Below the pieces are notes generated by a model. The model made no database searches. It saw only the letters and a list, made by a program, of their open reading frames with translations, and was not told the DNA's origin. A stretch of DNA of 53,727 bases. It comes from Eubacteriales bacterium (GTDB lineage: Bacteria; Bacillota; Clostridia; Lachnospirales; Lachnospiraceae). The number at the start of each line of letters is the position of its first letter. Positions within the stretch are counted from its first letter, which is position 1. The position numbers and the translations under genes were made by a program. Location: assembly GCA_030524715.1 (NCBI GenBank), contig JAUNGB010000028.1, positions 1-53,727 on the forward strand, written 5' to 3'. Positions 1,356 through 31,530 of this stretch are shown here, piece by piece.

Positions 1356-1370
1356 ATTTTCTCCTTTCTG

Positions 1371-1868: not shown

Positions 1869-1960
1869 AGTCTTTCTCCATATCTGGCAAAGCCTCTGCC
1901 GCCTCTATGACGGATAACAGGCAGAGGCATATCTATTCCATTCTCATTCCGTGTCTGTAT

Positions 1961-2980: not shown

Positions 2981-3023
2981 CTCGTTTCTCTCCTTTTCTT
3001 TTTTATTTTTTAATTTTAAAGTT

Positions 3024-5003
3024 TTATCGTTTCCCCCAATAAATCGGCATCCAAACCATCATTTCCCCATTACCTCTGTTATCCCATGCGAAATATGGAA
3101 TCATACGGATGGGAACTGTACGCACTTCTTTGCATTCCAAAGTCCTGTACAAGCCCTGCTGTCCGTCCTGTTTCTCAAGAACATATGCCTCTGTTTCCAA
3201 CGCCAGCAGATTTTTTCCCTCGATATCAAAGGGAATCTCCTTAAATTCTGCATCTGATGGAAGAAGTAAATCTCCCAGATTCTTCACCTGTGCATCCGGC
3301 GTTTCCAGGCAATAAACAAGCGGCCCTCTCTCTACTGCTGCCTGGTTAATGGTTTCCTCCAGATATGTATGGGCAACTGTATATCTTACCGGCATATCTA
3401 ATCTCAATTCTATGGAATCTGCCTGCGGATTTTCCACATATACCTCGTAGTAAGTACCGCTCTGTTCCTTTCCAAGAATCTGGATTTCCCGTCCGTTTTT
3501 CCGTATATTTCCGCTTGCTGTCCACTGAGGAATACGAAGCTTCAGGGTAAAAGGAACATTATTTTTTACATTAGAGATCTCAAACCAGATGGTTCCATCC
3601 CAGGGATAATCTGTTTTCTGCGTCAGATCAAATTCCGCTCCGTTTTCCAGAGAAATATGTGCCGTATTTGCGCCGTACATCCCTGTATAAATACAGTCTT
3701 TTCCCTTCATATAAATGTACTCGCTGGATTCCGCAATAAACCTCGCCATATTCGGCGGGCAGCAGAAACAGGTAAGGCTCTCCTGCCGCTGTAAGGGCCA
3801 CATCAGTTTATAATCCAAATGTTTTACACGGCGAAGAGCATTCTGGTAAAAATACCGGTTTCCTGAAAGACTTACCGACGCAATCGTAAGATTCAGCATA
3901 GAACGCTCAATGATATCAAAATACTTCGCCTGCGGATCAACGGCAAACATCCGGTAATTCCACATAATATTCCCAAGAGTGGCACAGGTTTCGTTGTATG
4001 CAGTAATGTTTGGAAGCTGATATTCATAGCCGAACGCCTGATGTACATTGTAGACCGTTACTCCATTGAGATGGTTGAATAATCCATACGGGGAAGTTCC
4101 TGTATATAAGGCCCCGCATCCACCGTTAATATAGAGCTTTTTATCTACACAGTTGCTCCACACTGCATCCAGCATGGTTTTTAGTTCCTCGTCTCCGTTT
4201 TCCGCATAAACATCCGTAGTCCCGGCATATAAATAAGTAGAACGGACACCGTGTCCTACGATTTTCCTGTGTTTTTTTAATGGAATACTGTCCTGGTTAT
4301 CATCTGTTCCATTCGGAACCAAATCCCGGACTGCCAACGCCATTTCCGCCAGTTTCAGATATCTGTCTTCTCCCGTTGTCCTGTACAATTCCACAATTCC
4401 CATATAATGAGACGGGCAAACCTCCGTCTGCGCCACCCCTTCTCTGATATATTGAAGGTAAAGCTGTTCCAGATATCCGGCCGCCTTTTCCGCTACTTTC
4501 ATGAAATTGTCTTTTCCGGTTATTCTCTTGTAAACACAGGCAGCAGTAAAAAGATGTCCGAAATTATATACTTCAAAATCATTAATATCCCCCAGCCTGG
4601 AATTACCGCCCTGCCTGTCTGCAATAATCTGCTTCGTGGAAATATAACCGTCTTCCTGCTGTACGCTGGCAATCAGTTCAATATACGCGTCTAAATCTTC
4701 CTCCAGCTTTTTATCTCTCCGCTTTGCCATGACATACATGGCAGCTTCCATCCATTTATAGAAATCACCGTCGCCAAACGGCGTTCCTTCGTGAGTTCCC
4801 TCATGAATGCCTGCCGCAACCCGAAAATTTTCCACCACATGGAAAATCGGAGAATCATCCTCGAACATCCCGCGAATATGAGGTATCGTCACATCTGCAC
4901 AGGTATTGAACCTTTCTTTCCAAAATCCATCATCCCAGTCAATATCCTGTACCGGAACAGGAGAAACCTTTGCATTAGCACTTTTTCTGGTGTCGATTAA
5001 CAT
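3024..5003 (-). CDS. GH127 beta-L-arabinofuranosidase-like glycoside hydrolase
   Basis: The 659-residue protein matches the length and layout of GH127 (formerly DUF1680): an alpha/alpha-barrel catalytic domain followed by beta-sandwich domains. The zinc/thiolate site is visible as NETC (Glu338, Cys340) and CFCCPPNMARF (Cys414, Cys415). In the characterised Bifidobacterium enzyme HypBA1 the equivalents are Glu338, Cys340, Cys417 and Cys418, with Cys417 as nucleophile. It has no signal peptide, so it acts in the cytoplasm on imported oligosaccharides, releasing L-arabinofuranose or a related sugar. Its ATG overlaps the stop of the upstream racemase-like gene (ATGTTAA), implying translational coupling. 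GH127 members with other specificities exist, so the exact sugar is inferred. Confidence 0.9.
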   Translation of the reverse strand: MLIDTRKSANAKVSPVPVQDIDWDDGFWKERFNTCADVTIPHIRGMFEDDSPIFHVVENFRVAAGIHEGTHEGTPFGDGDFYKWMEAAMYVMAKRRDKKLEEDLDAYIELIASVQQEDGYISTKQIIADRQGGNSRLGDINDFEVYNFGHLFTAACVYKRITGKDNFMKVAEKAAGYLEQLYLQYIREGVAQTEVCPSHYMGIVELYRTTGEDRYLKLAEMALAVRDLVPNGTDDNQDSIPLKKHRKIVGHGVRSTYLYAGTTDVYAENGDEELKTMLDAVWSNCVDKKLYINGGCGALYTGTSPYGLFNHLNGVTVYNVHQAFGYEYQLPNITAYNETCATLGNIMWNYRMFAVDPQAKYFDIIERSMLNLTIASVSLSGNRYFYQNALRRVKHLDYKLMWPLQRQESLTCFCCPPNMARFIAESSEYIYMKGKDCIYTGMYGANTAHISLENGAEFDLTQKTDYPWDGTIWFEISNVKNNVPFTLKLRIPQWTASGNIRKNGREIQILGKEQSGTYYEVYVENPQADSIELRLDMPVRYTVAHTYLEETINQAAVERGPLVYCLETPDAQVKNLGDLLLPSDAEFKEIPFDIEGKNLLALETEAYVLEKQDGQQGLYRTLECKEVRTVPIRMIPYFAWDNRGNGEMMVWMPIYWGKR

Positions 5004-5674
5004 TTTACAACTCCTTTCTCCACAAGCGCCTTTTTCAGGGCTGCCGCCCCGAATCTTGGACTTGACAGAACTTCTTTCTGATACAGTTGTGCGATGTACT
5101 TTTCACAGTATGCCATAGACCCTTGTGCAAACAAAATAACATCCACACTTTCCGCAACTGCTCCGGCACATTCTGCCATTCTTTTTTTGAACTCTTCCTG
5201 GTCAAGACCAAAAGCACCGTCCACCAATACTTCCACTATTTCCACTTTCTTTCCCATTTCACGCGCTACCCGATGAATTGTATTTATGGTAGGATGAAGG
5301 GTGGTAGGCAACGTTGCCATCACGCCGATTTTGTTTCCAAGCCTTACTGCCTCCCTGCACATTTCTTCATCGATTCTCACAATCGGTACTCCCAGATACC
5401 GCGCAGTATCCTGAACAGAATCCGCAACCTCTCCTACAGAAGAACAGATATTCAAAACGGCATCTGCCCCTGCCAATACCTGCTTCATATACATTTCTAT
5501 CAGTCTCGCTGCCGGCTTTGCCGTTACATACCCCTGCTCCCGGATGTCGTCTAAAATACTCGGGTCCTGCAGGCTGATGAGTTCCACATCCTCTCCCAAT
5601 TGTCTTTTTACTTCTTTTTCTACCAATTCTATCAATTCAGGTGTCGTGCTGGTATATGCAAGCCCTACCTTCAT
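4997..5674 (-). CDS. Aspartate/glutamate racemase family protein
   Basis: The 225-residue protein has the two-domain Asp/Glu/hydantoin racemase fold. The N-terminal half holds NICSSVGEVAD with a candidate catalytic Cys77. The second half has LFAQGSMAYC, where racemases normally carry their second catalytic cysteine; here Gln184 occupies that region and the nearest cysteine (Cys190) is displaced. A two-base racemase mechanism is therefore doubtful, and an isomerase, decarboxylase or lyase of the same superfamily is possible. The gene lies between the sugar-acid kinase and the GH127 gene in one operon and overlaps the GH127 start. This context suggests a step in sugar-acid metabolism rather than amino-acid racemisation. 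Confidence 0.82.
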   Translation of the reverse strand: MKVGLAYTSTTPELIELVEKEVKRQLGEDVELISLQDPSILDDIREQGYVTAKPAARLIEMYMKQVLAGADAVLNICSSVGEVADSVQDTARYLGVPIVRIDEEMCREAVRLGNKIGVMATLPTTLHPTINTIHRVAREMGKKVEIVEVLVDGAFGLDQEEFKKRMAECAGAVAESVDVILFAQGSMAYCEKYIAQLYQKEVLSSPRFGAAALKKALVEKGVVKC

Positions 5675-5757
5675 TTTCCTATCACTCCTCCTATAAGCGT
5701 AGGATTTCAGTACCCAACAGCCAGTCGGGACTTAATCCTCCTTCGTTATTCGTGTCA

Positions 5758-7179
5758 CTATTCTTTACACTCAGTAAGAACCTTTATTACCTTGTACAAA
5801 CTATCGTCATTCCCTACGTTTCCCGGAAATATCACGTATGGAATATCCGGAAATCTGCTGCTTTCGTCTGTCCTCCATACCGGAATCCCCGGCTGTATCT
5901 GTCCCAAGACAATGGCACGTCTGACGCCTAACGCCTTTACCCCGATATCACTGGAGGTAATGCCGCCTTTTGCAACGATAAAGGCCGGTTTTACATTCAG
6001 ATTCTTTACCAATGACAATACTGCCTCCGATATTTTAACGGAACGGATAAGGGCTGCTTCCGGGGTATCATCCTCCCTTATCAGAAGATGGCGTTTGGTA
6101 AATACAGACGTCGTAATTCCTCTGGAAATCAATATTTCTATTTCTTTTGTAACCCTTTTTGCTTCTTCAAAGAGTCTGTCTCCCTCAAGCACCAAATCAG
6201 AATTAAATTCCAGAAAATGAATATTCTGTATTTTCTTTAATTCTTCCAACTGCCGGGTCGTCTTGTCCGTGTGCGAGCCTGCGACGATAAGCCCTCCATG
6301 ACATGAATGCCCGATTAACATTTCCTCCTTTGTCAGAAGCTGCCTGTCGCTGATGTTTCCCATTGCCTTGACAAAAGAGGCTGCCGTACGGAACAGGAAA
6401 TGCTTTCCTCTATTTATCACACGGTAAAGGGCAGTAACAAAAATCTCTACATCGCTGCTCTCTATTGCGTTTACAACAATTTTTTGGAAATTATGTGCCT
6501 CCATCAGACATTCTTCTATTTTCTCATAATTCATAGATCTTAATTCATTTAAAGAAATACAGATGACCTCCGATGCAGGATACCTGCCCCTGCTTTTCTC
6601 TTCCACATATTCCGGAATGCTGAACGCCTCATAACCGAAGGTTTTATCTTTTGCAAATTCTGTCTCAGAAGCAGGAATCAGACAATCTCCATATTTTACA
6701 TAATGGATATTTTCTATTGTGTATCTTCCCCCTTCGGCAAAGAACGGGCAGAGAATCTCGCCATCAAAATTCCATGTATGCCTCTTCTCAAGTTCCTCCC
6801 TTAATATCTCCGTTTCCAGAGGGTAATGTCCCCTCAGTGTGGAATCACTTCTGCTGATAACCAGATAGGGCCGTCCATCGCAGGCTTTTTCCAGATTTTC
6901 TGCAATTTCTCTATGAACGCGGCAGGTTTTCTCTTCTGTAAAGCTTCGTGAATTTGTCAGGATAAAAAACATCTTTTGTTTCTCCTGGAACCCCCTTCGG
7001 ATGCTCTCTTCTGACCAGTCGGTATATACCGCAATATCGTGTACCGTCTGTACCCCTGTAGGGTCATCATCCAATACCACGATTTTATCCTGATTCCGTT
7101 TTACTTCCTCCTCCAACAGACTGCGGACAAGCTGTTGATCTACGTCCGGATATTGGTTCAGGACTTCTGCTTTCCGCAT
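5758..7179 (-). CDS. Four-carbon acid sugar kinase family protein (DUF1537/OtnK-like)
   Basis: The 473-residue protein has the two-domain architecture of the DUF1537 kinases. The N-terminal domain contains VLDDDPTGVQTVHDIAVYTD, the signature aspartates of the sugar-acid site, and SRSDSTLRGHYPLE. The C-terminal nucleotide-binding domain contains VAGSHTDKTTRQ and FIVAKGGITSSDIGVKALG. Characterised members (OtnK, DtnK) phosphorylate 3-dehydro-tetronates, D-threonate and related acids. It is the first gene of the TRAP/GH127 operon, with SD GGGAGGGGAG upstream of the ATG and a sigma-A promoter ending about 55 nt upstream. The usual partners (a dehydrogenase and an OtnC-type aldolase) are absent here, so the pathway is incomplete or finished elsewhere. 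Confidence 0.9.
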   Translation of the reverse strand: MRKAEVLNQYPDVDQQLVRSLLEEEVKRNQDKIVVLDDDPTGVQTVHDIAVYTDWSEESIRRGFQEKQKMFFILTNSRSFTEEKTCRVHREIAENLEKACDGRPYLVISRSDSTLRGHYPLETEILREELEKRHTWNFDGEILCPFFAEGGRYTIENIHYVKYGDCLIPASETEFAKDKTFGYEAFSIPEYVEEKSRGRYPASEVICISLNELRSMNYEKIEECLMEAHNFQKIVVNAIESSDVEIFVTALYRVINRGKHFLFRTAASFVKAMGNISDRQLLTKEEMLIGHSCHGGLIVAGSHTDKTTRQLEELKKIQNIHFLEFNSDLVLEGDRLFEEAKRVTKEIEILISRGITTSVFTKRHLLIREDDTPEAALIRSVKISEAVLSLVKNLNVKPAFIVAKGGITSSDIGVKALGVRRAIVLGQIQPGIPVWRTDESSRFPDIPYVIFPGNVGNDDSLYKVIKVLTECKE

Positions 7180-12969: not shown

Positions 12970-13996
12970 AAAACCACATTCCAGACTATGGCTATATTTT
13001 ACAGGGATCATCTTCGCAACCATCTTCGCAGTCTTTACTTTGGTTACGATCATCTGGCTTACCCTGTTCCGTTTCGATCTGATCCAAATCGATCCCCAGG
13101 TCAGACATATTCCCATCGCCATTTTTTTGTTGGAAAGTATTTTATTGGGGACGACTATCGCAGTGTTTGTAGGAAAAATCCTGATCAGACCCATCCGGAA
13201 TATGAGCGATGCGTTCGATGAGCTTTCTAAGGGAAACTTTTCCGTCAAGATTCCGTCAGATGGGAAAATCGCGGAAATCAGGGAGATGGAGCAGCACTTT
13301 AATGCCATGACCTATGATCTGTCCCACATGGAGACTCTCCGCAGTGATTTCGTGGCAAACGTATCCCATGAATTCAAGACGCCCCTTGCAACTATTGAAG
13401 GTTACGCGACGCTGCTTCAGAACCCCGGTCTGACCCGGGATAAACACGACCATTATGTAGAAATCATTTTAGACAACTGCCGCAGGCTGTCCGATCTGTC
13501 CACCAACATTCTTGCTTTATCTAAGTTAGAAAATCAGGAAATGATCATAGACAACCGGGAATTTCGTTTAGATGAACAGATCAGACGCTCTATCCTCCTG
13601 CTGGAAGGAAAATGGTCTCCTAAAAACATAGAATTTGATATGGACCTGCCAAAGCAGATGTATTACGGCAGTGAAGCCCTGCTGGCTCAGGTATGGAGTA
13701 ATATTCTGGATAACGCCATTAAACACTCTCCCACAGGCGGCGTGATCTGTCTGAATATCCAAACAACAGAAAAGGCTCTCACTGTTTCCGTCACCGACCA
13801 TGGAGACGGCATGACAGAGGAAGTACAGAAACATATTTTTGAAAAATTCTATCAGGGCGACCATTCCCGTAAGGCAGAGGGAAACGGGCTGGGACTGGCA
13901 TTGGTAAAACGAATTGTGGAGCTTTGCCATGGCACGATCCTTGTCCAAAGCGCCCCCGGACAAGGATCCACATTTTTCATTACTTTACCGCTGTAG
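12962..13996 (+). CDS. Sensor histidine kinase
   Basis: The 344-residue protein has two membrane helices (about residues 10-34 and 46-70) with only a short extracellular loop. A HAMP linker, a dimerisation/phosphoacceptor helix with His in VSHEFKTPLATIEGY, and an HATPase domain (N box NILDNAIKHS; G boxes DHGDGMTEE and GNGLGLALVK) follow. The very short sensor loop is typical of intramembrane-sensing kinases, which often take their signal from a partner ABC transporter. The start is TTG at 12962, inside the end of the regulator gene. A bidirectional terminator follows the stop. Confidence 0.94.
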   Translation: MNKKPHSRLWLYFTGIIFATIFAVFTLVTIIWLTLFRFDLIQIDPQVRHIPIAIFLLESILLGTTIAVFVGKILIRPIRNMSDAFDELSKGNFSVKIPSDGKIAEIREMEQHFNAMTYDLSHMETLRSDFVANVSHEFKTPLATIEGYATLLQNPGLTRDKHDHYVEIILDNCRRLSDLSTNILALSKLENQEMIIDNREFRLDEQIRRSILLLEGKWSPKNIEFDMDLPKQMYYGSEALLAQVWSNILDNAIKHSPTGGVICLNIQTTEKALTVSVTDHGDGMTEEVQKHIFEKFYQGDHSRKAEGNGLGLALVKRIVELCHGTILVQSAPGQGSTFFITLPL

Positions 13997-14019
13997 ATGA
14001 TAACAAATAAATAACAAAT

Positions 14020-14054
14020 AAAAAATCCTGACACAAAAATGTCAGGATTTTTTA
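14020..14054. terminator. Bidirectional intrinsic terminator
   Basis: AATCCTGACA and TGTCAGGATT form a perfect stem with a 6-nt loop, with an A-run before it and a T-run after it. It serves both the plus-strand kinase gene and the minus-strand binding-protein gene that converge here. Confidence 0.85.
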
Positions 14055-14076
14055 TTAACTTTATTAGCTTTATCGG

Positions 14077-15375
14077 TCACTGGGCATCCTGTACATCCTG
14101 CACGGTCTGCAATTCTTCTGCCGGATCTGCGCCTGCCGCCACATTCTGCATTGCTACCTGAATAGCCGTCTCTACCTCACTGTTGGAAAGCTTTCTGTTT
14201 CCTACCGCGTTGGATACATAGCTGTTTACTTCATCAATGGACTGCTGCTGAAGCTCTCCGTCAACGGTTCCCGTATAAGAAATTTCTTTGGAAACAGGAG
14301 CTCCCTGAAGCTGATTTACCCAATACTGCTGCCCATCGCCATTTGACATAAATTCCACGAATTTCATGGCTGCTTCTTTTTCTTCGCAGTCTTTATTTAC
14401 TGCCAGCATAATATCGACGCCGGAAGTTCCGCAGATGGTTCCATCTTCTGTCATAGACGGAAATACGCTCATTCCGATCACGTCGCCCTGATTTCCGATC
14501 TCCGTACCCTGGATTTCATCGTTCGTAGGGGAAGTCGGTCCAAGATGCCAGGAACCAGTCAGGAAAAAGATGGACTTTCTTGCAAAGAAATACTGATCGC
14601 GGGCATCCGGATAAGTCGCGACACCCAAAGCTCCTTCCTCAAAGATTCCGTCGTTAAACAGATTCTGCCACGCCGTCATGGTATCTACAAAACATTGATC
14701 CGTCCAGGAACGTTCCCCTTTTTCCGCCTCATATACTGCGCCTTCCTCAAATTCATTGGAAACCTGTACAAACCAGTCGGAGTTTACCCAATCGTCCGCC
14801 GCACCGGCTGCCACGCAGACATAACCTTTTTCTTTCGCCTTTGCGGCGGCGTCCTTCAGTTCCTCATATGTGGTCGGAACCTTCTCAATTCCGCACTCAT
14901 CCATCAAAGTCTTATTATATAAAAGATCCGTCATTCCTGCTACCAGAAGCGGCATTCCCACGACTGTCCCATCTTCTGTGGTACACTGTTCTACCGCTGT
15001 CTCACTGATCTTATCCTTCCAGTCGCTCCAGTATTCCTCTCCCAGTCCGTTCATATCTTCCGCAAATGGCGCATACTGTTCTGTCATTGCTCCTGTGGTC
15101 AGGCCGAACAGATCCGGACCTGTTCCGGAAGCCATCGCTACCTGAAGCTTTTCAAAATAATCATCCTGCTCTGTTCTTGTGTAGTCGATCTTGATATTCG
15201 GATTCTGTGCCTCAAACTCTGCGATCATCTCATCTGACTGATCCGTGGTCGGAAGCCATGACCAGAATGTCAATGTCACCTGATCTGCTTCTTCTGCGTG
15301 TACCGGAACCGCTGCCATAGACATTGCCATTGCTGCCGCCATCATGACGGAAATCCTCTTTTTCAACTTACTCAT
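14077..15375 (-). CDS. Sugar ABC transporter substrate-binding protein
   Basis: The 432-residue extracellular solute-binding protein (family 1) has a signal peptide (MSKLKKRISVMMAAAMAMS, cleavage near AHA/EEA at about residue 28) and no lipobox cysteine. TLTFWSWLPTTDQSDEM, GTGPDLFGL, YNKTLMDECGIEKVPTTYEELKDAA and FVEFMSNGDGQQYW are typical of this family. It captures an oligosaccharide for the two permeases encoded upstream; no ATPase is encoded in the cluster, so a shared MsiK-type ATPase is expected. SD AAGGAG precedes the ATG. A 45-bp tandem duplication lies in its leader. Confidence 0.93.
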   Translation of the reverse strand: MSKLKKRISVMMAAAMAMSMAAVPVHAEEADQVTLTFWSWLPTTDQSDEMIAEFEAQNPNIKIDYTRTEQDDYFEKLQVAMASGTGPDLFGLTTGAMTEQYAPFAEDMNGLGEEYWSDWKDKISETAVEQCTTEDGTVVGMPLLVAGMTDLLYNKTLMDECGIEKVPTTYEELKDAAAKAKEKGYVCVAAGAADDWVNSDWFVQVSNEFEEGAVYEAEKGERSWTDQCFVDTMTAWQNLFNDGIFEEGALGVATYPDARDQYFFARKSIFFLTGSWHLGPTSPTNDEIQGTEIGNQGDVIGMSVFPSMTEDGTICGTSGVDIMLAVNKDCEEKEAAMKFVEFMSNGDGQQYWVNQLQGAPVSKEISYTGTVDGELQQQSIDEVNSYVSNAVGNRKLSNSEVETAIQVAMQNVAAGADPAEELQTVQDVQDAQ

Positions 15376-22144: not shown

Positions 22145-22867
22145 TCACCAACTACACTCTTTACGCTTCTGTCTGATCTCTTTAAAACAAATACCCAGAT
22201 TCGTATGACGTTCAAGAGAATGCTTTTCTGTCTTTATATATTCCCACGACTCCCTGAAATCATCATATACAGAAAAATCGGAATCTGAAATGAAAGTCAG
22301 GAAATCATCCAAATGGTCTTTATACTTTTTTGCAAATGCGTAGGCATCATTTTCTTTATCATCATCTGTACTATTTAACTTATTGTACAGTACATGGTCT
22401 AAGTTTGATGACATATAATACGCATTATATGGAACAGTTCCCCACACTTTGTTTATGGAGCATATACGATTAATATTTTCACTTTTTCTTTTATTTCTAA
22501 GAATAATCTGATCTGGTTTTGCTGTTCGGATTTCTGTTGTCGTATAAAATGGCTTTTCTGCTTCTTTATCCTCTACAACAGCTACTTCCGGAATATATGC
22601 GCCATCCATGTCTATCAAATGAATCACTTGTTGAAAATCTGCTGATTTATAGTGATTTGACTTGGCATATCCTCTAAGTATATTTCCTATTTTTGCCGCG
22701 ATATTTCCTTGAGTAACAGATAAATCTGAAGTAATATCTCCATGTGTAATTTCCACATGGACTGCATTCCGGTCATAAAGACGGTTTAATATAACGCCCA
22801 ATGCCTCATCATCCGATGGTCCCTCAACAATTACAAATACGATTTTTTTACGAGCCACTTGCTTCAC
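22145..22867 (-). CDS. TOPRIM-like nuclease partner of the adjacent ATPase (putative defence protein)
   Basis: The 240-residue protein begins with VFVIVEGPSDDEALG and later has VIHLIDMDGAYIP, the glutamate and the DxD expected of a TOPRIM metal site. The remaining sequence is alpha-helical and polar with no signal peptide. The gene overlaps the end of the upstream ATPase gene by 20 nt and starts with GTG, so the two are translationally coupled. Two-gene pairs of an AAA/ABC-type ATPase plus a TOPRIM protein are known in OLD-like, PARIS (AriA/AriB) and RloAB systems; I infer a related anti-phage role. I cannot tell which family it belongs to, and it may be a distinct one. Confidence 0.72.
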   Translation of the reverse strand: MKQVARKKIVFVIVEGPSDDEALGVILNRLYDRNAVHVEITHGDITSDLSVTQGNIAAKIGNILRGYAKSNHYKSADFQQVIHLIDMDGAYIPEVAVVEDKEAEKPFYTTTEIRTAKPDQIILRNKRKSENINRICSINKVWGTVPYNAYYMSSNLDHVLYNKLNSTDDDKENDAYAFAKKYKDHLDDFLTFISDSDFSVYDDFRESWEYIKTEKHSLERHTNLGICFKEIRQKRKECSW

Positions 22868-24275
22868 CAGCCTCTCTGAATGCTAATGCAATTTCCGCGT
22901 TGTTTGTTGGCTCATAAACTTCCTCGTTTTGTTCTCCAAGAACGATATCCCGAAAATAAAAATCCCGCAGATTATTGTTATCCTTAATATTTACCATTCT
23001 GATATATCTGTTAGAAGGGTTGGTTGTGGTAAATGCAATAAAACCTCTGTCTAACGTTTCAAGAGGCCGCAAGTTGTGTGATGTAAAGATCAGTTGGCCT
23101 TTTCCCTTCTCAGAAATAATTCGAAGAATCTCTCCCAGTAAATACTCAAATATGCCTGAGTCTAATTCATCAATCGCAACTGTAATGGAGGACTGATTAT
23201 AGATTACAATCAAAAGCTGAAGTACTGAAATAATCTTCTTAATGCCTTCGGATTCATATTTTAAGGGAATCTCTTTTTTGTTTTTATGAGACATTAACTG
23301 AATTCTTATTCCCGTTTTCCCATTGTCCAATGCCTGGGTTCCAAGCTCCTTTAAACCAATTGTCAATCCGGGTACGATCTGCTCCAGGACAACATTCATA
23401 TCACGTATTATTTTCCGAATAATCTCTAAAGCTCCCTCCGGAATAACAGCAGATGTTTCAAGCGGAAGCATCATTTGCCCCACTGCGCCACTGTCTTTGT
23501 CCTCATATTTAAAGGCTAAGGGAAGTGCATTCATACTGATCATACCAGTGTTTGCTGTATTGATAACAAATAATTCGTAATTGCCATAAAGAATCAAGTT
23601 TTCCAGTAATGAAAGGTGCCTCATAAACTCTTCATCGTTTTCTTTTTCTTCCCGGCGTTTTCTGGCCGCACTTAATAATTCTCTTGAGAAAATAAAGGAT
23701 CTGGATGTATTAACGGCCATTTTTTTTGCTACAAGCAAGTCCATCATTTTTTCTTTATCTTTTCCGACCAGGCAGTCGTACTTTGCAACTGGTACGAAAA
23801 CCTTTTCCGTACGGGTATCAATAAATGGTCCTTTTCTGATTTTTTCTCTATTTCCTTCAAAAGAATAACTAAGAACCTCATCGTAAATCACCACTTTCGA
23901 CAACTGTTCATAAGAAGGATCCATATCCAGATTCTGTTCCTCAACATTTTCTTCTTTTCGAATATGAAACTGATAAAATGCTTCATACTTACCAGACGGT
24001 ACTATTATATCAAACGTATAAGCTAATGATGCATATTCTGCATCAACATTGATGTAATCCGCCATATCTGCGGGAATCGCCTTTCCACAAAGAGCATACT
24101 TAAGTAACTGCAGAGCATCTATCAGGGCGGTTTTGCCTGAACCATTCTGTCCATATAAGCCTAAAACACTTGCACGATAATTTTTCCTTCGGTTATAGAA
24201 ATTCAACTCTCCCTTTTCGACATTTTTGAAATTCTGAATTGATATTTCTGACAAACGAACCACCTTGCTTCTCAT
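22848..24275 (-). CDS. OLD/AAA15-like ATPase (putative defence protein)
   Basis: The 475-residue SMC/ABC-type ATPase opens with the IQNFKNVEKGELNF strand pair. Walker A GQNGSGKTALIDAL is near residue 40. An insert rich in charged helices follows, then the signature-like YESEGIKKIISVLQLL, Walker B VAIDELDSGIFEYLLG and the H-loop IFTSHNLRPLE. This is the AAA_15/AAA_21 architecture of OLD nucleases without their C-terminal nuclease domain; the TOPRIM-like gene downstream supplies it. AGGAGG lies 8 nt before the ATG. Together they form a compact two-gene module inserted among carbohydrate genes. Confidence 0.86.
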   Translation of the reverse strand: MRSKVVRLSEISIQNFKNVEKGELNFYNRRKNYRASVLGLYGQNGSGKTALIDALQLLKYALCGKAIPADMADYINVDAEYASLAYTFDIIVPSGKYEAFYQFHIRKEENVEEQNLDMDPSYEQLSKVVIYDEVLSYSFEGNREKIRKGPFIDTRTEKVFVPVAKYDCLVGKDKEKMMDLLVAKKMAVNTSRSFIFSRELLSAARKRREEKENDEEFMRHLSLLENLILYGNYELFVINTANTGMISMNALPLAFKYEDKDSGAVGQMMLPLETSAVIPEGALEIIRKIIRDMNVVLEQIVPGLTIGLKELGTQALDNGKTGIRIQLMSHKNKKEIPLKYESEGIKKIISVLQLLIVIYNQSSITVAIDELDSGIFEYLLGEILRIISEKGKGQLIFTSHNLRPLETLDRGFIAFTTTNPSNRYIRMVNIKDNNNLRDFYFRDIVLGEQNEEVYEPTNNAEIALAFREAGEASGS

Positions 24276-24475: not shown

Positions 24476-26056
24476 CTATACAACTGCTTCAATCAAGACT
24501 TTATCCCCCAAAGCAATCTCTTTTACCCCAATCTCCTTTTTCTTATTGAAGTTAAAGCTAAGCATATAGCCCTTGTTCAAATGATAATGATCGAGGTAGC
24601 CCAAAAGTTGTTTTTCTCCTCGTTCATTGTATGCATTTCCCCTCCATACTTTCATTTCGATAATACTTTGCTCCCCATGGTAATAAATAACCAAGTCCAT
24701 ACGCTCACTGTTTCTGGTTTCCGGCTCTATACTATAATTACCAATACCATTAATGATAGGTTTTAGGAACAGAATAAAATAGCGTCTCCCTGCATCTTCT
24801 AAAAAAGCTTCATCCTGATCCCCGTACAAATAATCAAATGTTTCCACAAATTTCTCCAGTATTAGCCTGACATTTAAATGCCCTCCGATAATAAACTGGT
24901 TTTTCTCCTGTACACCAGCCTTATACATCTCACTCACAGCAAATTCTTCCGAAACAAAATAATTGTAAAGCACAGTTTCGAAAATCCGATTGGAAACAAC
25001 AGCCGAATCTCTATCATTCTTTAAAAAGCCAAACATAGAGGCCATTTCAATATAGCTGTTTGTCGCAACATAGGGAATCGGTTTTCCTTTAAAGAGCAAA
25101 TCATACAAGACCTGTTTAAGCTCCGGATAATCGTTGAGTTTCCCTATCAAGGATTGGTACAGAGTATTATTTTCCTTTACAATCATTTTTTCAGCTTCAA
25201 GGAATCCATCCTTTGTCCATGCACGGCTTCTGTCAGGATATTCATCACTTCCTGCTACTTTCTCATCTATTAGCTTACAAATTCTGGAAACCAGATATGG
25301 ATATCCGGAGGTATAACAATAAATCAGTTCTGCAATTTCTTCTATACACATTCCGGTTCCATAGTCAGCCTCATATTCCTCAAGCATCCCCGCGATATCC
25401 TGTGTCGAAAAACTCATATCCACTTCAAAGTCCGCTGCTATATTCCATGGACTATTCGTCTTATGTTCTTCGTCTGAACGGATTTTTCTCTTAATATTGC
25501 GGACATCATAAACTCCTGCCAATATCACGGATTGAAACGTTGGGGTTCTCTTTCTCTTTAAATAATATGCGCGAAGCTGGGCAAGAAAGTCAGTAAATAC
25601 TTGATTGTTTGTAGCAGAATCCACCTCGTCAATCATTAAAACAATTTTCTTGTCGGATACTTTACACAGCTTTATTAAAGACTTAAATAATACAGAAAGT
25701 GTTGCTTCACGAACTGTTCCTGTTGAATACAGTTCCAGTTTTTCTCTTACCTCACCCGGAAGATTTTCTGCGCAATCCAGTATTTCCCTTGAAAATGCAG
25801 CAACAAAATTCTGTTCTGATTCAAAATCCGCATAGCTGATGGTCTGAAAATCCAGACTTATGACTTCGTAGTCTTTCCGCAAATAATCCGCAAGTGCTGA
25901 CAGTGTAGTGGTTTTCCCATACTGTCGTGCTCTGTTGATTGTAAAATACATTCCGGCATCTACCATATGTCGGATTTTTTCCAATCTGCCGGACAAATCA
26001 ACCATATAATTCACTTCCGGATCACAATATCCATTGGTATTAAACATTTTATACAT
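24476..26056 (-). CDS. AAA-ATPase-like protein with C-terminal PD-(D/E)XK nuclease domain
   Basis: The protein has about 526 residues. The N-terminal STAND/AAA-like ATPase has YFTINRARQYGKTTTLSAL (P-loop variant RQYGKTT) and Walker B IVLMIDEVDSAT. The C-terminal nuclease fold has RMDLVIYYHGEQSIIEMKVW (D, then E-x-K) followed by a conserved KQLLGYLD helix. The family is abundant in anaerobic Firmicutes and Bacteroidetes and its role is unknown. The frame is open back to 26104, but that part lies in a recombination scar. I favour the ATG at 26056 (AAGGAG about 12 nt upstream); an ATG at 26065 is the alternative. It lies 200 nt upstream of the ATPase/TOPRIM pair in the same orientation. Confidence 0.85.
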   Translation of the reverse strand: MYKMFNTNGYCDPEVNYMVDLSGRLEKIRHMVDAGMYFTINRARQYGKTTTLSALADYLRKDYEVISLDFQTISYADFESEQNFVAAFSREILDCAENLPGEVREKLELYSTGTVREATLSVLFKSLIKLCKVSDKKIVLMIDEVDSATNNQVFTDFLAQLRAYYLKRKRTPTFQSVILAGVYDVRNIKRKIRSDEEHKTNSPWNIAADFEVDMSFSTQDIAGMLEEYEADYGTGMCIEEIAELIYCYTSGYPYLVSRICKLIDEKVAGSDEYPDRSRAWTKDGFLEAEKMIVKENNTLYQSLIGKLNDYPELKQVLYDLLFKGKPIPYVATNSYIEMASMFGFLKNDRDSAVVSNRIFETVLYNYFVSEEFAVSEMYKAGVQEKNQFIIGGHLNVRLILEKFVETFDYLYGDQDEAFLEDAGRRYFILFLKPIINGIGNYSIEPETRNSERMDLVIYYHGEQSIIEMKVWRGNAYNERGEKQLLGYLDHYHLNKGYMLSFNFNKKKEIGVKEIALGDKVLIEAVV

Positions 26057-26102
26057 CTGCAGCATATGCTCCTTTTCCTGATCATTATAATCTTTTTCGC
26101 CC

Positions 26103-26293
26103 AATCATTATTGCAGTAAAACAGATACCGCCCTTTGGGAAGACTGAACAACTTTTGTAATATCCATTGTATCATAACTGTTCCAGTCTGTCATGCCAAA
26201 TCCCTCAAAGCCAAATTCCCTGCACATGCTCCCCTGAATCAGTTCCTCAAGGTTGCGGAAATGAACTGGCGCCTCCTGTCCGTGCGGCGCCAT
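26103..26293 (-). pseudogene. Scar with fused remnants of GH3 and GH43 glycosidase genes
   Basis: On the minus strand, about 26160-26290 encodes EFGFEGFGMTDWNSYDT, a hallmark of the GH3 beta-glucosidase active-site region. Immediately downstream, 26103-26145 encodes LPKGRYLFYCNN, matching GLYLFYCNND of the GH43 enzyme at 20885-21808, including 22 identical nucleotides. Neither piece is a functional gene. The join shows that glycosidase genes once stood here and were deleted or recombined when the accessory genes arrived. Confidence 0.75.
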
Positions 26294-26298: not shown

Positions 26299-27795
26299 TT
26301 ATTTTTCATCCAGCAGCGCAAGGCTCAGCCGGTAATACAGGCGTGTCCGGGAATCGGACAGATCGTTGCCCAGAAGCCTCCGGATCTTTTCCAGACGCTT
26401 TAAAAGACTGCTCCGATGAATAAACATGGCTTCCGCGGTTCTGGTAACACTCATCTCGTTCTGCAGGTAAACGTCCAGCGTTTTCAGATATTCCGTCCCC
26501 TTTTTGCGGTCATGCTCCCGAAGGGCTGTCAGTCCGTCCGAAAACAGGGCTTCTGCCTGCTGCTCCCCGGTACAGGAATACAGCATATAATTCAGAACAT
26601 GATCCTGAAAATAATGCAGCGAGGCTTCCGTCTCCCCTCCCTGCTCTACCGCATAGACGGCCTGGCCGAAATAGTCGTTAAGGCATGCAAAATCAGTAAA
26701 GGAATTGCTGATGCCCCCATAATACCCCATGCGCTGCAGGGATGTTTCAAAGAATTTCAGCGTTTCCGTTTTTTCTTTTTCCTGCAGGCGCAGAAGGCCG
26801 GCGATTTCGTCATGGTGGAGCACCGCATAGATGTTCCGGGGACTGACGGCGCTGATGGACGCATACATATAGTCCTTTGGAAAAGATTTCCCCTTCCGGC
26901 GCTCTTTCAATCGAAAACAGCACCACCGCTCTCCGGGCATCAGCGCAAGCTGCTTTTCCTCTTCCGCAGTCAGCGGGATATGCTCCAGAAGCTTTCTGAG
27001 GGCTATAAGTCCGGCGGAATCCTCCTGTACGCAGCTCCGCAGATATTTAAAGAACGCTTTGTCAAAATATGCGAAAAAGTGATCCATCAAAGGAAAATCC
27101 CCTTCCTTAAAGGAACCGCCTTTATCTTCTCCTATGGAGATGCAGCCGGAAAAGCTTCCGCCCGTATACAGATTAAAGCAGTAATACTGGACGGAATTCC
27201 TCTCAATGGCCGAGAGATACGGAACCGTAATCATGCGTTCCCGATTGCACACCTCTTTGATCATTTCGCTGTACTCCATGGACATGATCTGAGGCTTATC
27301 GTCAATGACAATACTATTGTCCGGCTTTATCTCCGAACGGAAAATCTGCCGCAGCGTGTGGTTCACCACTCCAATATCCCGCCCCAGCCGCTCTGAACCG
27401 AGGGTAAGGATTTTACGGATATCAAAATCCACCTCCTTCTCCAGCTCATCGCGAAGTCTGGCGTCCCAACGGTCAAAGCTGTCATAGATCCTCTGAACCT
27501 CATTAAACAGCTTTAAAACGCTTCCTGCATTCCCCACGGTTAAAAGCTGCACGCCTCCCAGAAGCCATTCGTGAGGAACCCGTGTGCCGACAGCCACAAA
27601 AGCGCAGTTTCTTGGCGGCAGCTCCTTGGGCAGTGTATCCGCCCTGGCAATGTACAGGGTTCCCTCTTCAAAAGTCCCGTCGCCTTCATACAGCAGCGGA
27701 CGGGGACAGACGCAGGAGCCGCCCGCCGGCCCATACCGTCTGGTCTGATAAGCCTCTGGCAGATACTCCTGGATAATATCTAAATTGAGCTGCAT
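26299..27795 (-). CDS. PucR/CdaR-type transcriptional regulator
   Basis: The 498-residue protein has an N-terminal PucR-like ligand/sensor domain, a GAF-like middle part (about 150-260) and a C-terminal PucR helix-turn-helix: MSVTRTAEAMFIHRSSLLKRLEKIRRLLG. AGGAGGAGG precedes the ATG by 4 nt. It is transcribed divergently from the three-gene operon at 28202-31445 and is the obvious candidate regulator of it. Regulators of this family usually activate catabolic operons in response to a small molecule. An inverted 11-bp motif pair in the shared intergenic region may be its binding site. Confidence 0.88.
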   Translation of the reverse strand: MQLNLDIIQEYLPEAYQTRRYGPAGGSCVCPRPLLYEGDGTFEEGTLYIARADTLPKELPPRNCAFVAVGTRVPHEWLLGGVQLLTVGNAGSVLKLFNEVQRIYDSFDRWDARLRDELEKEVDFDIRKILTLGSERLGRDIGVVNHTLRQIFRSEIKPDNSIVIDDKPQIMSMEYSEMIKEVCNRERMITVPYLSAIERNSVQYYCFNLYTGGSFSGCISIGEDKGGSFKEGDFPLMDHFFAYFDKAFFKYLRSCVQEDSAGLIALRKLLEHIPLTAEEEKQLALMPGERWCCFRLKERRKGKSFPKDYMYASISAVSPRNIYAVLHHDEIAGLLRLQEKEKTETLKFFETSLQRMGYYGGISNSFTDFACLNDYFGQAVYAVEQGGETEASLHYFQDHVLNYMLYSCTGEQQAEALFSDGLTALREHDRKKGTEYLKTLDVYLQNEMSVTRTAEAMFIHRSSLLKRLEKIRRLLGNDLSDSRTRLYYRLSLALLDEK

Positions 27796-27812
27796 AAACC
27801 TCCTCCTTTCAT

Positions 27813-27853
27813 GGATTCAAGACTCGCTCGCGAGTCATCCCACATCTGGTATA
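27813..27853. repeat. Composite hairpin repeat upstream of the PucR gene
   Basis: AAGACTCGCTCGCGAGTC forms a hairpin; about 22 nt including it recur at 53601-53622 between tRNA genes. It abuts 22 nt (27832-27853) that exactly match the right arm of the palindromic element at 12089-12110. The repeat is thus built from exchangeable modules. Confidence 0.7.
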
Positions 27854-27854
27854 C

Positions 27855-27972
27855 GACAAAATGTATCCCATTGTATGTTCTTTTTTCCTCGTATATTTCC
27901 TATATCATAGTCCTTTTTTGTGGATTTTGCCAGTAAAAAACAAAATAACCTATTTTTTTCCTACATTTTGTC
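27855..27972. promoter_or_regulatory. Inverted pair of 11-bp motifs, candidate regulator sites
   Basis: GACAAAATGTA (27855-27865) and its exact reverse complement TACATTTTGTC (27962-27972) are 96 bp apart in the 406-bp divergent region between the PucR-type regulator and the three-gene operon. A third weaker match was not found. Paired sites at this distance could bind the regulator with looping. Confidence 0.4.
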
Positions 27973-28106
27973 CACTATATGGAGAAGAAAAGTCTGCTTT
28001 TTGCGGCCTCAATTCTGTCCCCTTCCCCAAATCCTCCGCAAAAATTTCCTGACTACAGTCAACAAAAACAATATTTTTTCACAAAACTTTTCGCATTTAT
28101 GCAGTC

Positions 28107-28135
28107 TGCACAAACAGTAGTCGTTTTGATATAAT
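28107..28135 (+). promoter_or_regulatory. Candidate promoter of the GcvT-like/SDR operon
   Basis: -10 TATAAT (28130-28135) has a weak -35 TGCACA (28107-28112) at 17 nt, as expected for an activator-dependent promoter. The leader to the ATG at 28202 is about 60 nt; SD AAAGGAGC is 8-10 nt before it. Confidence 0.5.
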
Positions 28136-28201
28136 TTTTTCAACAATAATAGCCAAAAACGTTTATTAAAAAACATCTACCACAGAAAGGAGCGATATTT
28201 T

Positions 28202-29434
28202 ATGAGTAAAAAAATTGACCCGCGTATGCCCAGGGAAGTAGGCACAGGCCTTTATCCGGTAAAATCGCCCTGGGACAAAATGATTTCCTACCGCGATGCA
28301 GCCCATTATGTTCAGCGCTATACCAATGTAGTCAGCGCGGCCATCATGCAGGCATTCCGGATTCTGGTTCCCGACTATGTGGAGCGCAGCAAAGCCATGT
28401 GTACCAACGCCTATAACCGCCTGAGCTTTGTCTATGAAAATATTCCCGGTTATCCGGAAATGAACGCGGACCAGCTTCACATGCATCCGTTCATGCGCGG
28501 TAATTTTGTGGGCGGCCTCATTGGGGACGCCGGCGATGAAGACCTTCTGATGTGCGGACGCGTCAATGATTTCGGCACCTACCGCGCAGAAAAAGAGCTG
28601 GACGTCTGTTACTGGGATCTGGTAGGCTCAGAGCTGTGCCGTTCCACTACCCAGTCGCTGCAGGCATGCGCGGACCATGCCGCTATGCTTCGGCCGGAGG
28701 GTCCCCATATCGAATATCATATGGTGGAAGCCAAAGGCTGCGGAGACCGCCATTGCCGTATTGTAGCGGAGTGCCGCAAAAAATTCCCCATGCCTCCCCA
28801 TGAACAGTGGGAATGCTTCGGGCCTGTAAGCACGGAAGATCAGATCAAATTTACAAAAGAAGAGGACTGTGTGGATGAATCCATGATGTTCCGCGAGGAA
28901 TGTGATTACCTCTTCTCTAACGGCACAAATATGGAAAAAGACTGGCGCAGCGCGTATCCTATGGTTACAATGTCCTACGGCGCCACCTACATCCTTCCTA
29001 CCATTGACGATCTGATCCGGGAGGGCAGACTGACAAATGAGCAGGTGGACTATGTTCTGCACTGTGTCTGCGAAGCAGCGGGCAAATCCACCTTTATCGA
29101 CGATTTTTCCAAAGAAGGGCTTCGGGTATGGCTGGGCGCTCCCCACTCCGTCAGCAAGGACGACGGCCGTCTCATGGGCGGTTATCTGGAAATGTTCCTT
29201 CAGAGCCTGCATGCTCCCTATGATGTGGAAGCTTTCAACAACGAAGAATGCATTTATGTGATCGACCGGGCTGCGCTTGCAAACAACATGCCAAAAATGG
29301 TAGACGCCTATCGCTGGTTCTGGTACGGCATGACCAAAAGCCTTGTGAATGCCCAGTGGTCCCTGTGGGAGGAAGATTCCCCGGAAGGAAAGCTGAGAAT
29401 CAGGATTGCCAAGAAGATCGACAAATTCTGCTGA
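28202..29434 (+). CDS. Uncharacterised protein resembling V4R/XylR_N ligand-binding domains
   Basis: The 410-residue soluble protein has no signal peptide. YHMVEAKGCGDRHCRIVAE (about residues 175-193) closely resembles the E-x-G-x-G-x-x-x-C-R-x-V zinc-associated motif of the V4R domain found in phenol and toluene sensors such as DmpR, XylR and MopR, but no AAA or DNA-binding domain follows. The C-terminal half has FLQSLHAPYDVEAFNNEECIYVI, which aligns loosely with the first half and suggests an internal duplication. Cysteines are frequent (about 14). It is the first gene of an operon with a GcvT-like folate enzyme and an SDR. It could bind an aromatic or C1-carrying substrate, or act enzymatically; the function is not established. 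Confidence 0.7.
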   Translation: MSKKIDPRMPREVGTGLYPVKSPWDKMISYRDAAHYVQRYTNVVSAAIMQAFRILVPDYVERSKAMCTNAYNRLSFVYENIPGYPEMNADQLHMHPFMRGNFVGGLIGDAGDEDLLMCGRVNDFGTYRAEKELDVCYWDLVGSELCRSTTQSLQACADHAAMLRPEGPHIEYHMVEAKGCGDRHCRIVAECRKKFPMPPHEQWECFGPVSTEDQIKFTKEEDCVDESMMFREECDYLFSNGTNMEKDWRSAYPMVTMSYGATYILPTIDDLIREGRLTNEQVDYVLHCVCEAAGKSTFIDDFSKEGLRVWLGAPHSVSKDDGRLMGGYLEMFLQSLHAPYDVEAFNNEECIYVIDRAALANNMPKMVDAYRWFWYGMTKSLVNAQWSLWEEDSPEGKLRIRIAKKIDKFC

Positions 29435-29475
29435 TACGGGTCTTGAACCGCAGCATGCAAAGGAGGTATATATAC

Positions 29476-30513
29476 ATGAATTATCCATATCCCGTAATGT
29501 ACAAAAATGTTTATAAATATGACGAGATGAAACGTGCCGAGCATATGGCAGTCCGCAATACCGTGGGATGGTATCTCTGGACCCATCAGCTTGTGGAAGT
29601 GACCGGAGCTGACTGTGTGGAATTTCTGGAAAAAATCTTCCCGAAAAATATCGGCAGCCTGAAGGTGGGGCGCGAGCGCTATACCACCATGCTGGACGAA
29701 AAGGGAGAAATTATCGACGATGTGGTTGTTTTCCGCATGGATGAGAAAAAATTCTGGGTTTCCACTCTATTCCGCGCCGATATGTTCGTTTGGTTTCAGA
29801 CTCATAAAGGAGCCTGCGACGTAGCCTGGGTCGATGTTACTCCCCAATGGGAAATGTACGCCGTACAGGGGCCGAAATCTCAGGAAATGGTCAACGCGCT
29901 TACCGCCGCGCCGGTAGATGACCAGAAATTCTTTGAAATCAGGGCAAATGAGATCGACGGTATTTCTGTTTACGTAAACCGCGCGGGCTATACCGGCGAA
30001 AAGCTTGGCTATGAGCTTTATTTTCCAAAGGCTGAGGCTCCCGCCATGGAGAAAAAGCTGCGCGATTTGGCGGAATCCTTTGGCGGCAGGGAGGTTACGG
30101 AATTTCAGGTAATGGCCTGGACGCTTCCCTGTGAGGCAGGCTTTTTCTATATGCGCGACCTGCGCCATACAAATCCCTACGAGGTCGGCCTTGAAGGCGG
30201 CATCAACTGGGACAAGGATTTCATCGGCAAAGAGGCTCTTGCAAAAATCCGCGACGAAGGCGCTTCCCGCGAGGTTGTGGGCTTTACCGTAGCAGATGCG
30301 GACATCCATATCAAGGGACGGAACATGGGCAATGAAGGGGAATTTGTCTACAAGGACGGAGAATATGTGGGCCGCTGCATGAAGATCACCTACAGCTATG
30401 TGAATGAAACAAATAACGGCGCCATTATCTGCCGGAAGGACTCTTTAAAGCCCGGCGACAAAGTAACCATGCACGGCCATGAGGCTGTGATCTGCGCGCC
30501 GAAGTTTATCTGA
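29476..30513 (+). CDS. GcvT-like tetrahydrofolate-dependent methyl/aminomethyltransferase (demethylase-like)
   Basis: The 345-residue protein has the GcvT/DmdA/LigM superfamily fold. LEKIFPKNIGSLKVGRERYTTMLDEKGEIIDDVVVF is the typical N-terminal folate-site stretch (two segments: residues about 48-60 and 65-85). The core has YAVQGPKSQEMV and NRAGYTGEKLGYELYFP, and the C-terminal barrel has LEGGINWDKDFIGKEAL. The ATG at 29476 has AGGAGG 9 nt upstream; the frame is open further upstream only by chance. No gcvP/gcvH genes are nearby, so a glycine cleavage role is unlikely. Demethylation of an O-, N- or S-methyl substrate onto tetrahydrofolate, as in LigM or DmdA, fits better, but the substrate is unknown. 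Confidence 0.85.
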   Translation: MNYPYPVMYKNVYKYDEMKRAEHMAVRNTVGWYLWTHQLVEVTGADCVEFLEKIFPKNIGSLKVGRERYTTMLDEKGEIIDDVVVFRMDEKKFWVSTLFRADMFVWFQTHKGACDVAWVDVTPQWEMYAVQGPKSQEMVNALTAAPVDDQKFFEIRANEIDGISVYVNRAGYTGEKLGYELYFPKAEAPAMEKKLRDLAESFGGREVTEFQVMAWTLPCEAGFFYMRDLRHTNPYEVGLEGGINWDKDFIGKEALAKIRDEGASREVVGFTVADADIHIKGRNMGNEGEFVYKDGEYVGRCMKITYSYVNETNNGAIICRKDSLKPGDKVTMHGHEAVICAPKFI

Positions 30514-30533
30514 CTGATATAGGAGGAATGAGA

Positions 30534-31445
30534 ATGGATTATGATCCCAAGGCTATGGCCGCCGCATTAATGCGCGGCTACATCACAGACACTCCTTCAC
30601 TGGAGGAAATGATTTATGTAAAAGAAAAGGTTGCCATTGTCACAGGCGGAACCTCCGGACTGGGCTTCTGTACCGCACAGAGACTGCTGCAGGGCGGCGC
30701 GAAGGTGGTCATCTCCGGCTCCACAGACGAGAAAGGAGCTTCTGCCATCGCTCTTTTAAAGGAAGCAGGCTATGAGAACGTAACCTTCTGCAAGGCAGAT
30801 CTGCGCAGCGAGGAGCAGGTGAAGGCAATGGTTCAGTTTACAGCGGAAACCTACGGCTCGGTGGACATTCTGGTCACCTCAGGCGGTGCCTGGAGCTTTG
30901 CCCACATCTACGACCTTCCGGAAGAGGAATTTATGAAGACCGTTGACATTAATCTTGCCGGGGCTTACCGCTGTGCCAAGTATGTGAGCAAATATATGGT
31001 AGACAACGGCGTAAAAGGAAAAATTGTGCTGGTTTCCTCCAATGTGGCCTATCTGCCCCAGCCGGTATTCGGCGGCTATGCACACTATGCAGCATCCAAG
31101 GGCGGCGTCATTTCCATGACCTACGAGATTGCCAAGGAACTGAAGCGTTTCGGCATTATGGTAAATTCCGTCGCGCCGGGCGGCATGATGACCCCGGGCG
31201 GTCTCACCAATGGCCCCGTGCGCACTCTGCCCCCGGAAAAGCAGATGGAAATGGGCAAGGAATTAATGGTGGAAAAAATGGACAACGTTCCCACCGCCGA
31301 CTCAGTAGCCATGGTCATCTACGGCATGTGCACCCGCATGGCGGACGGAATTACGGGAGAATGTATTGTTGCCGACAGCGGCATGATGCGCAATATCGTG
31401 TCCTACCAGCCTGCTATTGAGCAGTATCCTCCCGCCGAATCCTGA
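30534..31445 (+). CDS. Short-chain dehydrogenase/reductase (SDR)
   Basis: The 303-residue classical SDR has the Rossmann glycine motif TGGTSGLG near residue 40, the SSNVAYL serine, and the catalytic pair in YAASKGG (Tyr and Lys four residues apart). PGGMMTPGG is typical of the cofactor-proximal loop. Its N-terminal 30 residues (MDYDPKAMAAALMRGYITDTP) precede the Rossmann fold. AGGAGG at 30521-30526 sits 7 nt before this ATG; the ATG at 30528 is too close to it. The gene follows the GcvT-like gene by 20 nt. It probably oxidises or reduces the alcohol/carbonyl of the same substrate or product. Confidence 0.92.
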   Translation: MDYDPKAMAAALMRGYITDTPSLEEMIYVKEKVAIVTGGTSGLGFCTAQRLLQGGAKVVISGSTDEKGASAIALLKEAGYENVTFCKADLRSEEQVKAMVQFTAETYGSVDILVTSGGAWSFAHIYDLPEEEFMKTVDINLAGAYRCAKYVSKYMVDNGVKGKIVLVSSNVAYLPQPVFGGYAHYAASKGGVISMTYEIAKELKRFGIMVNSVAPGGMMTPGGLTNGPVRTLPPEKQMEMGKELMVEKMDNVPTADSVAMVIYGMCTRMADGITGECIVADSGMMRNIVSYQPAIEQYPPAES

Positions 31446-31497: not shown

Positions 31498-31530
31498 CAA
31501 AGCCTCCGGTTTCAATCGGAGGCTTGTTTT
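31498..31530. terminator. Intrinsic terminator between the SDR gene and lon
   Basis: GCCTCCG and CGGAGGC form a stem with an 8-nt loop, extended by flanking CAA/TTG and followed by TTTTT on the plus strand. It ends the plus-strand operon and may also stop lon, which converges on it. A short direct repeat (TATGACAGTAACA) precedes it at about 31455 and 31488. Confidence 0.82.

Follow-up and report, generated by a model that had tools for sequence, protein, structure and literature searches.

What does an operon do when its first gene encodes a protein without a Pfam family and its other genes encode a GcvT-superfamily protein and a short-chain dehydrogenase/reductase (SDR), next to a divergent gene for a PucR-type regulator? 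Such an operon lies within the stretch of DNA analyzed here, hereafter the window, which is 53.7 kb long (53,727 nucleotides) and comes from contig JAUNGB010000028.1 of Eubacteriales bacterium (GCA_030524715.1). The operon is real and conserved. It probably strips one-carbon (C1) groups off a compound and, with a probability of about 0.55, is an inducible catabolic module in which tetrahydrofolate (THF) receives a C1 group removed from a hydroxylated small molecule. The features of the locus, in which the first protein is called P1, are the following.

26299..27795, minus strand: PucR-type transcriptional regulator of 498 amino acids (aa), with a C-terminal HTH_30 domain (Pfam, 1.4e-17)
27796..28201, strandless: PucR-P1 divergent intergenic region, likely promoter and operator (direct reading; alignment with 7 relatives)
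27856..27865, minus strand: candidate operator half, TACATTTTGT (exact copies in the window: 2)
27962..27971, plus strand: candidate operator half, TACATTTTGT, the other exact copy
28107..28135, plus strand: promoter-like site TGCACA-17-TATAAT, TG-extended, 10 of 12 (consensus scan only)
28202..29434, plus strand: P1, 410 aa, predicted V4R-like fold, no Pfam family (Pfam, alignment, AlphaFold2 model)
29476..30513, plus strand: GcvT-superfamily protein, 345 aa (GCV_T 3.4e-43; tree, residues, model, fold search)
30528..31445, plus strand: SDR, 305 aa (Pfam adh_short, 8.3e-47)
31500..31525, plus strand: terminator-like hairpin past the operon, 11 pairs then a T-run (consensus match)

An earlier note on this DNA, made from the sequence alone, had placed P1, the GcvT-like gene and the SDR gene consecutively on the plus strand with the PucR-type gene divergent, and our analysis confirmed these positions and this order. 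The longest open reading frame (ORF) of the GcvT-like gene begins earlier, at 29248; we chose the start at 29476, 41 bp 3' of P1, because it is preceded by a ribosome-binding site (aaaggagg) and agrees with the aligned N-termini. The SDR start follows 14 bp 3' of the GcvT-like gene. The hairpin is one of 7 found in the region by a consensus scan, 4.4 being expected.

Is this arrangement found elsewhere? Relatives of P1 were found in 166 stretches of named genome contigs, the best of which gave 79 loci, and 82 places were counted with the two copies of the host included. P1 is sparse. With the host counted each time, it was present in 3/299 genomes at the family level, 4/392 at the order level and 3/398 at the phylum level. 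Since a GcvT gene adjoins P1 on the same strand at 80 of the 82 places, the arrangement goes far beyond chance; the other two are L085, whose contig ends 11 bases past P1, and L080, where the genes are divergent. Within 4 kb of P1, a PucR-type gene occurs at 66 places and an SDR gene at 68, and all four genes stand together at 58/82. When only the 58 places with room on the contig are counted, the figures are 57 for GcvT, 51 for PucR, 52 for SDR and 48 for the complete set. The loci are titled Lachnospiraceae/Blautia, Coriobacteriales, Fusibacter, Alkalibacter, Sporosalibacterium and Spirochaetales metagenome-assembled genome, among others, and the four-gene set recurs across many gut bacteria. 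Blautia schinkii DSM 10518 and Blautia parvula NBRC 113351 are among the strains with module loci (L047, L054). The gene-neighborhood survey thus bears out the conservation on which the earlier note had staked its proposal. Its three-gene operon under a PucR regulator stands as to order and conservation, but the conserved unit consists of four genes, PucR included. The P1-GcvT pair is also carried by Alkalibacter mobilis M17 DMB (L033), a label that hints at dimethoxybenzoate enrichment; we did not use it as evidence, and PMC10477458 concerns another organism from such an enrichment.

We then come to the enzyme itself. The earlier note had assigned the second protein to the GcvT superfamily, and this assignment holds: beside the GCV_T match, shared by 49/49 aligned module members, the folate-site residues are kept. 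In 1woo numbering, used for all these comparisons, Y83, D95, D96, Q147, E191 and E195 are present in 50/50 module proteins, and we take Y83, D96, E195 and the others to have folate-site roles. R227, D228 and R231 of the GARDxxRLE motif are lost in 50/50 module proteins and kept in 17/17 T-proteins. The position of N112 is Ser in 49/50 and Thr in one, DmdA having Ser and LigM Arg. The D95-D96 pair is complete in all 50 module proteins, whereas DmdA and LigM keep the second D only and DMGDH has A-E. In a 72-row tree, midpoint-rooted and with long branches, in which four rows are pasted stretches and the LigM and DmdA rows are fragments, the 50 module proteins formed a single clade (100/99) apart from 18 T-proteins, LigM and the host LigM-like protein, DmdA and DMGDH. 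The grouping with LigM or DmdA that had been suggested is therefore not found, and neither do the module proteins group with true aminomethyltransferases.

The alternative that the GcvT-like protein is the aminomethyltransferase of a glycine-cleavage-like system is hardly credible. T-proteins are its best sequence and fold matches, its AlphaFold2 model (pLDDT 93.7) reaching a TMq of 0.87 with 1wos, and they share its core folate-site residues; such a likeness of predicted folds would be expected within the superfamily. Against this reading, the window protein lies below the cut-offs of all three GcvT models (152.5/300, 113.2/235.85 for TIGR00528, and 99.2/459 bits), the 17 T-proteins that pass TIGR00528 in 116 genomes of the order scoring 335-427. 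The separate clade, the lost GARDxxRLE motif and an N-terminus shorter than that of T-proteins point the same way. In the window, no glycine-cleavage gene was seen among the ORFs read by eye, as the earlier note had said of the neighborhood, and no glycine-cleavage P-protein (GDC-P) in the host assembly exceeded the cut-off of 26, one match reaching 22.6 bits. The glycine-cleavage reading was rejected on the sub-cut-off scores, the clade, the lost motif and the lack of a GDC-P over cut-off in the host.

What, then, is P1? No Pfam or NCBIfam model matches it at E≤1; it therefore shows neither a DNA-binding nor an AAA domain, as the earlier note had stated. The best Pfam match of the 50 aligned P1 members reaches only E 0.021, and the V4R model is unmatched at E≤1 by all 50 and in the host genome. 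Against PDB sequences, the single sequence gave a best E of 0.46 and the profile search nothing at E≤1. The AlphaFold2 model built from 50 sequences (pLDDT 89.4, pTM 0.89) was compared with the PDB by Foldseek, and its top five matches were the phenol-sensor domains of PoxR/MopR (best E 0.003, probability 1.00). Further matches among the best 50 were DmpR, TRAPP Bet3, H-NOX and YslB, with designed proteins and BcsD intermixed. The TM score is about 0.45-0.5 relative to the target and about 0.25 relative to P1 (TMq), because less than half of its residues align. The model thus suggests a V4R-like fold. Such a fold had been proposed in the earlier note from the motif YHMVEAKGCGDRHCRIVAE (P1 residues 172-190); the model is nearest, weakly, to PoxR/MopR/DmpR, so no unrelated enzyme fold emerged, but the V4R Pfam model does not support the proposal.

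Conservation draws attention to one part of P1. C136, C146, C185 and E176 are invariant in 50/50 rows of the alignment and C180 is found in 42/50; in a seven-row set including the host second copy and L015, the three Cys are kept and E176 is replaced by Gln in L015. The zinc ligands of MopR are three Cys and a Glu, a site that the P1 positions resemble. This resemblance is a lead only, and the three invariant Cys and the nearly invariant Glu could hold a metal. Residues 96-200 contain 22 of the 37 invariant positions, including R128, E130, K131, E132, D134, C136, C146, E176 and C185. The two halves of the model show a similar order of secondary structures; since hhalign between them gave E 0.63, with no detectable sequence similarity, we do not claim an internal duplication.

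On the other hand, P1 could be a substrate sensor or chaperone outside catalysis, the GcvT-like protein and the SDR being the enzymes. We consider this unlikely. Its nearest folds are sensor domains and it carries no known catalytic signature, but a PucR-type gene already provides the regulator at most places, P1 has no visible output domain, its adjacency to GcvT is near total, and its invariant positions cluster as described. Unlike the V4R sensors MopR, PoxR and DmpR, to which the model bears a weak likeness, P1 has neither AAA nor DNA-binding domain nor a V4R Pfam match, and is coupled to an enzyme gene. We tentatively propose that P1 and the GcvT-like protein could together be a new C1-removing enzyme of anaerobes, made of two components and dependent on THF but not on a corrinoid; P1, as a metalloprotein with the V4R fold, would present or activate the substrate. 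We would not put this at even odds.

How might the operon be controlled? The word TACATTTTGT has 2 copies in the window, where 0.07 are expected, and the two face opposite ways within the PucR-P1 gap. Across 59 PucR/module gaps, with 150 bases of each flank added and near-copies kept, it was found 9 times exactly (0.13 in 30 Markov-sampled control sets) and 31 times at ≤1 mismatch (3.5 in the control), in a test that is partly post hoc, since the alignment from which we chose the word comprised 8 of those gaps. At least one copy at ≤1 mismatch is held by 23/59 gaps, and 9 of the 15 exact copies in all loci fall in these gaps, which represent 30.6 of 1347 kb. For part of the family, we regard TACATTTTGT as a candidate operator. 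The promoter-like site at 28107..28135 adjoins a stretch, ATGCAGTCTG, conserved in the alignment with 7 relatives; the scan returned 5 such sites for 4.6 expected, that is, no above-chance number.

Where would the C1 group go? The host assembly holds three GCV_T proteins, two of them in modules and a separate one nearest LigM, beside another PucR-type gene. The features around the latter are as follows.

L101:8571-9923 (contig C205): LigM/DesA-like protein of the host, 450 aa (homology)
L101:10056-11459: second PucR-type regulator, adjoining the LigM-like gene
L101:14556-16670: CO dehydrogenase (CODH)-family gene, about 5 kb from the LigM-like gene

Another host contig, C194, carries two acetyl-CoA synthase (ACS) matches and a formate-THF ligase, and further ORFs that resemble, by eye, methyl-THF:corrinoid and CODH genes. 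ACS was found at E≤1e-25 in 29/49 module-bearing genomes versus 9/295 of the order, host included (Fisher 2e-21), and over the curated cut-off in 33/49 versus 20/295; the comparison ignores kinship, its E-value line was picked after the data had been seen, and the 49 genomes span several orders.

From these elements we infer THF-linked C1 removal, a partnership of P1 and GcvT in catalysis, and a catabolic direction. The PucR-type regulator would sense the compound and work the divergent promoter through the TACATTTTGT pair. The SDR, assigned by family membership, would oxidize (or reduce) an alcohol or ketone next to the C1-bearing position. P1, judging from its predicted fold and conservation, would bind or activate the substrate, and the GcvT-like enzyme, with its folate-site residues and P1 as partner, would move the C1 group to THF. 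Acetogenic hosts such as this one, which holds key genes, would finally pass the folate-bound C1 into the Wood-Ljungdahl pathway. The dedicated catabolic unit proposed in the earlier note remains the best reading; the aromatic substrate attached to it is unsupported, TRAPP and H-NOX folds being matched as well.

The neighboring genes vary. The SDR gene lies either 5' of P1 or 3' of GcvT, and the SDRs do not belong to a single type, their best matches being divided between two reference types. At some loci a gene for a Zn-ADH, an MFS protein or a VOC protein is present in addition, which would fit a catabolic unit. The second module of the host (L005) reads PucR, then SDR-P1-GcvT-VOC-acyl-CoA dehydrogenase and two ORFs resembling EtfB and EtfA; these VOC, acyl-CoA dehydrogenase and EtfB/EtfA-like genes, at L005:8716-12725, 3' of the module, suggest a CoA-linked later step in that variant. 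In G974, a more distant P1 genome, the order read by eye is PucR, then GcvT-P1-SDR-ADH-MFS. PanB-like genes (PF02548, ketopantoate hydroxymethyltransferase family) lie about 1-6 kb from P1 in 4/79 named loci and may be 5,10-methylene-THF-linked partners.

L061:8194-9045: PanB-like gene
L078:2554-3468: PanB-like gene
L079:6425-7315 and 13949-14878: two PanB-like genes
L090:10118-10996: PanB-like gene

Naming the substrate from these neighbors was tried and abandoned, as Zn-ADH, MFS, VOC, PanB-like and acyl-CoA dehydrogenase/Etf genes vary by locus and do not point to any compound; of methylated cyclitols, methoxyaromatics and methylenedioxy compounds, all weighed as candidates, none was favored.

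The PanB-like genes bear on the nature of the C1 unit. It might be a methylene or hydroxymethyl group: the SDR would expose a methylenedioxy, N-methylene or beta-hydroxymethyl-ketone group, from which 5,10-methylene-THF would be made, a variant that we find doubtful while taking it seriously. Besides these genes, the complete T-protein D-D pair speaks for it. However, few loci have PanB-like genes; DMGDH makes methylene-THF and has A-E at the pair, which is weak proof in consequence; and the Ser at the N112 position is common to DmdA, a methyl-transferring enzyme. A further point for methylene comes from BrdA, a THF-dependent GcvT relative that moves methylene according to PMC5547118, where BrdA and SesA take methylene and LigM and DesA take methyl.

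One could also assume that the module serves biosynthesis or detoxification, a C1 group being added or recycled. In principle GcvT reactions can run both ways, and for the single MFS protein tested against NCBIfam it was mostly efflux families that scored, below their cut-offs. Catabolism agrees better with the PucR-type control, the ACS-rich hosts and the added dehydrogenases and transporters, and we hold this alternative to be distinctly improbable.

Several observations weigh against the catabolic C1-to-THF module, in addition to the limits of the ACS comparison. The P1 fold matches are weak, none reaching E≤0.001, with a root-mean-square deviation of 4.5-8 Å for PoxR/MopR and designed proteins and BcsD within the best 50; coming from a model, they would carry no information on catalysis, and P1 could be a separate pathway enzyme. 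LigM, which transfers methyl, has Arg and not Ser at the N112 position. Even at one mismatch, 36/59 PucR gaps lack TACATTTTGT, that of the host second copy included, and 20/49 module-bearing genomes lack a strong ACS match. The SDRs differ in type and so may not perform one fixed step. T-proteins over cut-off are missing in 40/49 module-bearing genomes, yet they are not rarer there (9/49) than in the order (17/116), so that the module is tied neither to the presence nor to the absence of the glycine cleavage system. Finally, the host assembly consists of 210 contigs with 5% contamination, and therefore its second copy (C114), its LigM-like gene (C205) and its absences might mislead.

A parallel can be drawn with known systems. 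DmdA (PDB 3tfh), itself catabolic and THF-dependent, shares with the module protein the superfamily, the folate-site Asp and Glu and the Ser replacing N112, but the module protein falls outside its clade and scores 105/410 bits on the DmdA model. We know of no P1-like partner for DmdA. PMC7487153 names a Ser, a Glu and a Tyr in the folate-binding domain of DmdA, with a numbering that could not be matched here. LigM, DesA and BrdA belong to the same superfamily and, according to PMC5547118, achieve THF-linked C1 removal from plant compounds; they count about 429-476 aa (PMC5547118, PDB 5x1i) versus 345 for the module protein, which forms a deep separate branch and scores 59.3/580 and 66.3/800 bits on the LigM/DesA models. 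Acetogens also have corrinoid-dependent O-demethylases, built of MT-I, a corrinoid protein, MT-II and an activating enzyme; in hosts of this sort, these would supply C1 units to the very pathway proposed for the module (PMC12915777, PMC13418474). The four genes of the module include none of these components, a URO-D-family gene occurring 2 kb from P1 in L033 only among the loci looked at. Most, if not all, characterized acetogen O-demethylases need cobalamin according to PMC12915777; PMC13418474 likewise describes them as mostly corrinoid-dependent and gives the gut enzyme demethylating the drug etoposide as unresolved. Judged by titles and abstract openings, the literature matches listed contain no description of this gene set, in line with the earlier note, which knew of none. 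In the module, THF-dependent C1 transfer would take another form, one that involves a partner protein without a name so far.

Other genes were observed in passing. At Blautia-type loci (L045:6149-6481, L046, L048, L050, L053, L054, L063, L073), a short conserved protein with a shared core of about 70 aa lies beyond PucR, one tested member having no Pfam match. In the window, positions 22145-24275 (minus strand) encode an AAA ATPase of 475 aa, whose best PADLOC match is AbiLi (1.9e-30), followed by a 240-aa protein that neither Pfam nor PADLOC matches; the two genes may form an anti-phage defense unit. The AAA-like ATPase encoded at 24476-26104 (minus strand) has no PADLOC match and, at its C-terminus, a weak match of the PD-(D/E)XK nuclease-like kind (1.6e-4). 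The region 69-7179 (minus strand) resembles an operon for sugar-acid catabolism: it encodes a protein of the Asp/Glu racemase family and one with the two domains SBD_N and NBD_C, and the genes at 69-2980 look, by eye, like transporter genes.

What would the benefit of such a module be for these bacteria? If our proposal is true, gut acetogens would have a second route to demethylate plant or drug molecules. The P1 family is absent from the Pfam copy used, and the V4R fold could gain an enzymatic role. With the operator candidate, the inducer can be looked for in a reporter assay. Gut and rumen metabolism would gain a further enzyme class if Blautia-type acetogens have such a conserved C1 module, linked to folate and free of corrinoid.

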